A stretch of DNA of 5,294 nucleotides from an uncultured Collinsella sp. (GTDB lineage: Bacteria; Actinomycetota; Coriobacteriia; Coriobacteriales; Coriobacteriaceae): positions 1-5,294 of the forward strand of contig CAJLAN010000130.1 in assembly GCA_905204635.1 (NCBI GenBank). Reading direction: 5' to 3'. The notes beneath the pieces were generated by a model. The model made no database searches, was not told the origin of the DNA, and saw nothing but the letters and a program-made list of their open reading frames with translations. Made by a program: the position numbers and the translations under genes. Shown piece after piece: positions 1,407 through 2,392 of the stretch (positions are counted from its first letter, which is position 1; every line of letters begins with the position of its first letter).

Positions 1407-1576
1407 GGAAACCGCGACCCGGTTTTTGGCCGAATAGTGGGTCGAATTTTCCGGATGGGGTGGGTTGCGGAAAGTGCGACCCGGAATATTGCTCTGAAAC
1501 GGGATGCGGTTTCCCTGATGTGCCTCAAACGGAAAGCGCATCCCATTCCGGAGCTCCAAAACGGGATGCGCTTTCC
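1407..1576. repeat. Alternating inverted array: six 15-bp motifs at exact 31-bp period (BIME-like)
   Basis: A motif of the form GGAAA-N3-C-N2-CCC-(G/A) occurs at 1407 (+), 1438 (-), 1469 (+), 1500 (-), 1531 (+) and 1562 (-). Every start is 31 bases after the previous one, and orientation flips each time. The six versions, read on their own strands, are GGAAACCGCGACCCG, GGAAAATTCGACCCA, GGAAAGTGCGACCCG, GGAAACCGCATCCCG, GGAAAGCGCATCCCA and GGAAAGCGCATCCCG. The first three carry GA at positions 10-11 and the last three AT. The second is the weakest match. The 16-base spacers differ, although the minus-oriented copies at 1500 and 1562 also share the nine bases upstream (24-base units at 1491-1514 and 1553-1576, 21 of 24 identical). 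The layout is that of BIMEs, clusters of REP sequences in alternating orientation. It lies just beyond the stop codon of the phosphatase gene, where such clusters often affect mRNA ends. It is not a CRISPR array. Confidence 0.75.
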
Positions 1577-1618: not shown

Positions 1619-2287
1619 TTACTCGCCCAGGATTAGCGCTGCGAGCTCGCCCTGGGTGTCCACCACGTAGTCGGCGCCGGCGGCCTCCAGCTCTGCACGG
1701 CCGCGGAAACCCCAGCTGACGCCCGCGCTCTTAAGGCCGGCGTTGTGACCGGTCAGAACATCGACATTGGAATCGCCCACATAGAGCGTGGTCGCCGGAT
1801 CGGCGCCTAGCTCTTCCATCACATGCAGCGTAACAGGCGCCTCGGGCTTGGGGGGAAACGCATCGATGCGGCCCTGCACCAGCGCAAAGCGCTCGGAACC
1901 AAAATACTTCTCGATAAGCGGAGCCGCCGAGACGTGGTCCTTGTTAGTGAGCACGGCAAGCTGCACGCCCGCGGCGCGCAGGCGGTCGAGCATCTCGATC
2001 GTACCGGCATAGGGGGCGGTGTGGTCCTCCTTGTGCTCGCCGTAGTAAGCCCTAAACTCGGCAAGCGTTTGCTCAAACATACGGCTGTCGCCCGCATACT
2101 CGGCAGGCATAAAGCGCTCAACCAGCTTGAGCATGCCGTTTCCCACCTTGTAGCGGTACTCGTCAACGGCAAACGTGGGCCAGCCGTGCGCCTCGCAGGT
2201 ATGGTTGCCGGCGGCCGCCAGGTCCTCGAGCGTGTTGAGGATGGTGCCGTCCAGGTCAAAGATCACATGGGAAAAAGCTGCTGCCAT
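1619..2287 (-). CDS. gph: HAD-superfamily phosphatase, phosphoglycolate phosphatase-like
   Basis: A 222-residue cytosolic HAD hydrolase. Motif I is FDLDGT with nucleophile Asp11 and acid/base Asp13. Motif II is VLTNKD with Thr114, motif III Lys147 in PPKPEA, and motif IV GDSNVD with Asp172 and Asp176. Residues 16-90 form the helical cap typical of the Gph/PGMB type. The likely reaction is dephosphorylation of 2-phosphoglycolate or a similar small phosphate ester, but HAD substrates cannot be read from motifs, so the symbol is tentative. I chose the ATG at 2285-2287 because AGGAG sits 5 bases upstream (2293-2297) and FDLDGT falls at its normal distance from the N-terminus. An upstream in-frame ATG at 2348-2350 would add 21 residues unlike the family and has no ribosome binding site. 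The gene follows hypE by 105 bases on the same strand and may be read from the hyp transcript or its own promoter. A functional link to hydrogenase maturation is not evident. Confidence 0.85.
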   Translation of the reverse strand: MAAAFSHVIFDLDGTILNTLEDLAAAGNHTCEAHGWPTFAVDEYRYKVGNGMLKLVERFMPAEYAGDSRMFEQTLAEFRAYYGEHKEDHTAPYAGTIEMLDRLRAAGVQLAVLTNKDHVSAAPLIEKYFGSERFALVQGRIDAFPPKPEAPVTLHVMEELGADPATTLYVGDSNVDVLTGHNAGLKSAGVSWGFRGRAELEAAGADYVVDTQGELAALILGE

Positions 2288-2392
2288 GGGTGCTCCTGCC
2301 GCTTGAGTTGTAAAACGCACCCCATGATACTGGGCATGCGTGTCGGGCATGTTTGGAATCTGAATATCTTTAATAGCCCTGAGCCTTTGTCG
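2288..2392 (-). other. hypE-phosphatase intergenic gap with small hairpins
   Basis: The gap holds CCCA-tgatac-TGGG (2321-2334 region) and two direct copies of GGGCATG close together (2334-2350). On the minus strand there is a TATCAT that could act as a -10 box, but no convincing -35 box at the right spacing. There is no T-run after a hairpin, so I see no clear terminator after hypE. Confidence 0.25.

Follow-up and report, generated by a model that had tools for sequence, protein, structure and literature searches.

Dispersed bacterial repeats of alternating orientation are usually classed as REP or BIME elements, which are spread by RAYT proteins and recognised as hairpins. According to passages of two papers on these elements (PMC2817692, PMC8266576), REPs are palindromes with a tetranucleotide tag, mostly GTAG, and are kept by complementary mutations; a RAYT gene is flanked by two cognate REPs in inverted orientation, and the presence of the RAYT tracks that of its repeats. 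The same passages give more than 100 copies per genome as the usual number for REP/BIME elements and report that they bind IHF, gyrase and Pol I. Dispersed sites of another kind are those of Noc and SlmA, which are described in a section of PMC4726725 as under-represented in the terminus region.

Here we describe an array of short sites from an uncultured Collinsella sp., contained in a stretch of 5,294 nucleotides (the whole of the DNA analysed, referred to below as the window). In the literature searched, with most subscription journals and preprints outside its scope, we found no earlier description of such Collinsella repeats, and the word Collinsella is absent from the main text of the RepRanger paper (PMC12306157).

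The motif GGAAANNNCNNCCC is matched exactly six times in the window, always within the array at 1407..1576 and nowhere else in the 5,294 bases; in 200 dinucleotide shuffles of the window the mean number of matches was 0.03 and the maximum 1. The copies are located at 1407..1420 (GGAAACCGCGACCC, plus strand), 1439..1452 (GGAAAATTCGACCC, minus), 1469..1482 (GGAAAGTGCGACCC, plus), 1501..1514 (GGAAACCGCATCCC, minus), 1531..1544 (GGAAAGCGCATCCC, plus) and 1563..1576 (GGAAAGCGCATCCC, minus), and all six are exact matches, as the first-pass annotation had it when it described six copies that change strand each time. The strict 31-bp phasing with 16-base spacers that it gave can be put more exactly: the period is 62 bp, with spacers of 18 bp on the CCC-to-GGG side (1421..1438, 1483..1500 and 1545..1562) and 16 bp on the TTTCC-to-GGAAA side (1453..1468 and 1515..1530) in alternation. 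The starts at 1438, 1500 and 1562 given earlier belong to a 15-base frame, while the 14-mers begin at 1439, 1501 and 1563; when the site is counted as 15 bp, the spacing becomes 31/31. The centres of the 14-mers are alternately 32 and 30 bp apart, and each 62-bp repeat contains two dyads, one of them at the centre of the 18-bp spacer. These lengths are typical of the array family described below, in which 104 of 107 spacers of the first kind are 18 bp long and 82 of 86 of the second kind are 16 bp long.

Three turns of the double helix measure 31 bp at 10.33 bp per turn, and at 10.5 bp per turn they exceed the 31-bp spacing by 0.5 bp. In the latter case the faces of the sites drift by about 17 degrees per site, which adds up to about 86 degrees between copy 1 and copy 6. 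As the match to three turns is inexact, the proposal that all sites face the same side of the helix is nearly but only approximately right, and the drift is relevant to the longest array known to us, which has 15 sites. A similar spacing is found in the NrdR boxes, AT-rich palindromes upstream of nrd operons which occur as cooperatively bound pairs about 31 bp, or about three turns, apart; NrdR has two boxes per site, whereas the Collinsella sites form dispersed arrays.

The array starts 42 bp beyond the stop codon of a gene for a HAD-family hydrolase (1619..2350, minus strand; Pfam HAD_2, E 5.9e-37), whose true start may alternatively be at 2287. The protein is 98% identical to that of one C. 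aerofaciens strain, and the window comes from the C. aerofaciens group. Besides this gene, the window encodes domains of HypE, HypD and HypC, a part of HypF and an IS110-family transposase. The IS110-family element lies beside the array, at 47-1123 with a non-coding end at about 1124-1250. By eye, this non-coding end resembles the contig ends of three homologous loci (L004, L014, L016) near their 3' ends, and three others (L001, L007, L013) stop elsewhere in this intergenic region, in another IS-like sequence. We considered whether the array could be the end of an IS110 element, with its non-coding RNA region, and rejected this because arrays are present at the same site without such an IS end, for example in L002, L005, L008 and L010 (700 bases inspected by eye). 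At 1334-1381 the window also has two direct copies of CGGCASTTGGGGACRYTCCTT, part of a second dispersed repeat, TTGGGGACRYTCYT, which has 27 and 37 matches in the array-positive genomes G006 and G007 and 0 in the array-negative genomes G015 and G021. Inverted doublets at a distance of 30 bp are frequent in this second repeat, which gives it a REPIN-like layout.

When the 170-bp block was used for a DNA search in five relatives, each gave 14-18 matches, shifted registers of the same array included. Exact matches to the 14-mer in these five numbered 49-91 per genome, compared with 9-14 for the backward pattern, and the range was the same over nine genomes overall (exact copies only, background included). 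There were 11, 8 and 13 array sites in three relatives, and about ten intergenic array places per genome in the genomes counted, that is C. aerofaciens and close relatives. In the loci that were fetched, copies on the same strand are separated by distances near 62, 124, 186 and 248 bp and copies on opposite strands by distances near 30/32, 92/94 and so on. The full motif lists of three genomes contain 111 pairs of neighbours, defined as exact copies separated by no more than 130 bp. Of these pairs, 109 lie no more than 1 bp off a strand-aware 62-bp grid and 98 exactly on it; both exceptions belong to a single genome (G007). The motif is thus not confined to the window, and elsewhere it is not without phase: both the phase and the alternation recur in related genomes.

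To describe the family, we took 39 arrays, with the orthologous arrays of five genomes counted separately and with L040 and L050 (both from the site of the window array) and single-copy clusters omitted. They comprise 233 copies with 90 distinct 14-mers, 2 to 15 copies per array, and the consensus from their base counts is GGAAASYGYRWCCC. The division of the window array into a GA half (copies 1-3) and an AT half (copies 4-6), seen earlier, is real, and among the 233 copies the positions concerned vary freely (position 10, A 112 and G 120; position 11, T 190 and A 27).

The pattern of two facing copies, which occurs 3 times in the window against 0.00 expected, was found 9-28 times per genome in 22 of 43 Collinsella genomes and was absent from the other 21; the backward control of this pattern gave 0 in 43 of 43. 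Across 396 genomes of the class, 21 have matches at nine or more places, every one of them among the 22 array-positive Collinsella genomes, one other (G367) has a single match and 374 have none. At the HAD site all arrays fall in the 20 loci with a HAD protein 91-98% identical to that of the window, and no array was found in the 9 loci, of 29, with 55-81% identity. Judging from these comparisons, we take the array-bearing Collinsella genomes to be one clade. A phage origin was also considered and discarded, as only one IMG/VR viral contig matched, at one place within coding sequence, which was taken as chance.

The HAD loci were found through the neighbouring HAD protein and hence independently of the motif. 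By eye, an array was present at the same place 3' of the HAD gene in 15 of the 29 homologous loci, one locus had a single copy (L009), and none was seen in 13, nine of which are the more distant loci. The other four (L012, L016, L017 and L018) are close relatives in which no array was seen in the first 700 bases past the HAD gene, a short view in L012, L016 and L018, whose contigs stop 238, 314 and 301 bases past it. An array at the HAD site is therefore not essential. The place of the missing array in L012 and L018 is taken, from 6667 onwards, by other inverted repeats, among them GGGGTAGCTAA elements and a palindrome whose arms are AAGTTGCGGTGAAATAGGGACTG.

The window and the 15 loci with a full array were aligned (16 rows; L009, L012, L016-L018 and the outgroups were left out). 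The 170 columns of the array contain 0 gap columns. Only 4 of the 48 columns of fixed motif bases were polymorphic, compared with 51 of the 122 other array columns; the latter comprise 21 of 36 non-fixed motif columns (position 9, 2/6; variable positions, 19/30) and 30 of 86 spacer columns, and in the flanks 58 of 112 were polymorphic. Fisher tests gave p 1e-5 for the fixed against the other array columns and p 0.02 for spacers against flanks, values which serve as guides only because the rows share ancestry. The variation of inner bases next to invariant outer ones argues against homogenisation as the cause. Both the sites and their spacing are thus conserved among orthologs, which is consistent with the cooperative protein binding that had been expected from the layout.

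The number of copies at a given site differs between genomes. One orthologous site has 2, 2, 2, 2, 6 and 8 copies and in addition a four-site array split by an IS (L060); a second has 5, 7, 7, 9, 13 and 15. At 6 of the 9 varying orthologous sites the copy number differs by even numbers, that is by multiples of 62 bp, in a count that takes the L060 array as four copies and omits a mixed hotspot group and the neighbouring array L105_0. At the other three the parity is altered (7/6/4/7/8; 7/6/6; 7/4/4/4), so that steps of 62 bp are common but no law, and the stepwise growth suggested earlier is partly supported. The split array belongs to G005. There, an 18-bp spacer is interrupted in its middle by an IS3-like element (L060, 1628-2908), which encodes a transposase with an integrase core (rve), has inverted ends and is apparently accompanied by a 3-bp duplication; three sites precede it and one follows.

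Such steps would be expected if the arrays were a tandem repeat, neutral or selfish, that owed its regularity merely to duplication of a 62-bp unit, and some neighbouring copies are indeed identical. Adjacent copies are somewhat alike across the 16-bp spacer (15 identical pairs, 2.0 expected) and also across the 18-bp spacer (8 identical pairs, 2.9 expected), an excess which means that some duplication or conversion takes place. Same-strand copies two apart, however, were no more alike than in shuffles at five of the six variable positions (z 2.1 at the sixth), with 3 identical pairs against 3.8 expected. Together with the conservation of the fixed bases and the spacing among orthologs, this makes simple duplication a very unlikely explanation of the regularity.

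It had also been suggested that neighbouring copies form alternative hairpins in RNA. Array RNA could then act at the 3' ends of genes, terminating transcription or protecting mRNA, and both the location and the predicted folds, which are strong, would suit such a role. The fold of the window array is unusually strong (z -5.2) because the copies are inverted repeats as such. Facing copies separated by the 18-bp spacer (107 pairs) agreed at the variable positions about as often as in shuffles (z below 1.8; at position 6, 44 against 40.2 expected), and agreement was slightly raised in the pairs across the 16-bp spacer (z up to 2.9). The helices on both sides paired far more cells of the ortholog alignment than slid versions did, as is expected of inverted repeats. 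Double-changed cells numbered 2 in the helices of the 18-bp spacers, worse than the 6.7 of shuffles, and 1 in those of the 16-bp spacers, no better than 0.7. A compensatory change was found in 0 of the 48 pairs of the predicted fold. Since facing copies do not covary, base pairing is not the conserved feature, which speaks against hairpins as the selected feature; conservation is on the fixed bases and not on pairs. Rfam gave no match at the gathering threshold, and a simple terminator scan found no terminator-like match within the array. On these grounds, the absent covariation and absent Rfam matches, an RNA regulator was rejected, and 3'-end hairpins of either function are in our estimate highly improbable.

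The resemblance to BIMEs raises the question of whether the arrays are a new REP/BIME-like (REPIN) family, that is, non-autonomous mobile elements on which a RAYT acts through single-stranded DNA hairpins. Like BIME, REP and REPIN elements, as far as the parts of the sources consulted describe them, the arrays consist of short, regularly spaced repeats of alternating orientation, are mostly intergenic and near 3' ends, and vary in length between strains. A RAYT-like Y1 protein of 341 aa has orthologs of at least 72% identity in 21 of the 22 array-positive genomes and in 0 of the 21 array-negative ones, where Y1 matches did not exceed 41% identity except for a 47-residue fragment at 53%. The co-occurrence with a RAYT gene that was to be looked for is there, confounded by shared ancestry: if the arrays mark one clade, any clade-specific gene would give the same pattern, and gene and arrays possibly go back to one event. 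Five of the 21 orthologs have in-frame stops and two are partial, and one array-positive genome (G031) has no ortholog at all.

The flanks of the Y1 genes were then compared with the motif. A first check of six Y1 genes, of which four are the RAYT-like ortholog, found no exact motif closer than about 1.5 kb, and the flanks of five of the 21 orthologs (L080-L083, L118, L119) contained none even at 8 of 9 fixed bases. An unrelated Y1 locus (L079) had two scattered matches with one mismatch, and L078 had none. No inverted repeats of 12 bp or more were seen up to 240-370 bp beyond two Y1 genes (L081, L083), and a GTAG-type tetranucleotide tag is absent from the base counts of motif and spacers. 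Unlike the REP-type elements described in those sources, then, the Collinsella arrays lack such a tag, a palindrome maintained by complementary mutations and a motif around the RAYT-like genes checked; their linkers are nearly fixed at 16/18 bp, and their copies are fewer. The likeness to BIMEs holds for the layout, and membership in the family fails on the features examined. Mobilisation by a RAYT as the main account is weakened by the lack of motifs in these flanks and by the persistence of arrays in genomes whose ortholog is broken or missing, and the arrays occupy orthologous sites across genomes. We consider it unlikely that the arrays are a REPIN family.

The position of the arrays relative to genes was examined in 62 arrays with a home-made codon-usage gene caller; L040, L046, L050, L054 and L071, covered elsewhere, were skipped. 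Six of the 62 overlapped a predicted ORF and 5 were at locus edges, and of the 51 between two genes 24 were in convergent, 20 in tandem and 7 in divergent gaps. The background was 2 convergent gaps in 51, which derive partly from repeated copies of one locus, and the p-value of 1e-6 is optimistic because orthologs were counted separately and not collapsed. Arrays lay at a median of 69 bp from a stop (n=68) and 262.5 bp from a start (n=34); the preference for stops was not significant when only tandem gene pairs were considered (p 0.20). The arrays are thus mostly intergenic, nearer stops than starts and often close to the 3' ends of genes.

These positions bear on the idea that the arrays are operator clusters through which an ordinary transcription factor controls the adjacent genes. 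A site that is degenerate yet conserved, with fixed spacing, would be in keeping with an operator, as would 13 of the 34 start-side distances, which measure 48-126 bp. The nearness to stops and the 24 of 51 arrays between convergent genes speak against it, as do eight locus proteins that we examined, six of them array neighbours or in-array transposases, which had no common function. Control of adjacent genes appears improbable to us.

At one hotspot (L098 4612-8219, L099 7649-9441, and L100-L104) arrays bracket accessory genes, encoding a DUF234 ATPase and/or a 332-aa protein with no Pfam match, in combinations that differ between genomes. The 332-aa protein encoded between arrays was considered as the cognate factor and rejected: a copy of at least 92% identity is present in 10 of the 43 genomes, all of them array-positive, and the other 12 array-positive genomes have no such copy.

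Finally, we looked at the position of the arrays on the chromosome. Three genomes have 1 of 11, 0 of 8 and 0 of 13 of their array sites (1/32 in total) beyond 0.62 of the half-chromosome, a cut-off picked after the positions were seen, and the sites share descent. The placement of dnaA in G024 was inferred from a lone motif 4,513 bp from dnaA, as in G006 and G007, and a length of 2.28 Mb was assumed. In G006 and G007, 16 of 36 lone motif matches lay beyond 0.62 (Fisher p 0.0025 against the arrays), and another repeat family had 13 of 51 there, a contrast with the arrays of p 0.09 in two genomes and p 0.007 when the G024 arrays were added. KS tests of the array positions against uniformity gave p 0.10, 0.13 and 0.017. 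A depletion of arrays in the terminus region is only weakly suggested by these values and is a lead. In both G006 and G007 the distance between the dnaA match and a lone match to GGAAACCACGTCCC (G006:C1:1729505, G007:C1:1746083) is exactly 4,513 bp, and the lone match lies between dnaA and an HTH_ParB match.

With Noc and SlmA sites, as described in the part of the source consulted, the arrays would share dispersed, sequence-specific sites in the tens that are under-represented at the terminus, for the arrays only a weak lead; Noc and SlmA have palindromic single sites, whereas the Collinsella sites are phased arrays. A Noc-type ParB paralog was tried as the partner and rejected, because none tracks the arrays: a second HTH_ParB match above the cut-off occurred in just one of the 43 Collinsella genomes (G009).

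Taken as a whole, the block in the window is a member of an intergenic array family, and it is moderately likely that it forms a row of duplex DNA sites for a putative sequence-specific protein. Such a protein would dimerise over both dyads, which lie in the middle of the 18-bp and the 16-bp spacers, and its cooperative assembly would in this way follow nearly a single face of the helix. The resulting nucleoprotein patch might organise or insulate the chromosome at gene ends and not switch particular promoters, a step we put forward with more reserve. Quite unlikely is a more specific version in which the arrays are the DNA half of a system by which the C. aerofaciens group organises its chromosome or times its division: the putative protein would polymerise on 2-15 phased sites kept from the terminus third, and the arrays would take a Noc/SlmA-like role as ready-made nucleoprotein filaments.

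One bacterial group has repeats that are laid out like BIMEs and conserved like a protein site on duplex DNA, with fixed bases, free inner bases, locked spacing and no pairing constraint. The 62-bp unit is a defined bait with which a candidate DNA-binding protein of this human gut genus may be found, and the natural series of copy numbers, from 2 to 15 sites, suits tests of cooperativity and helical phasing.
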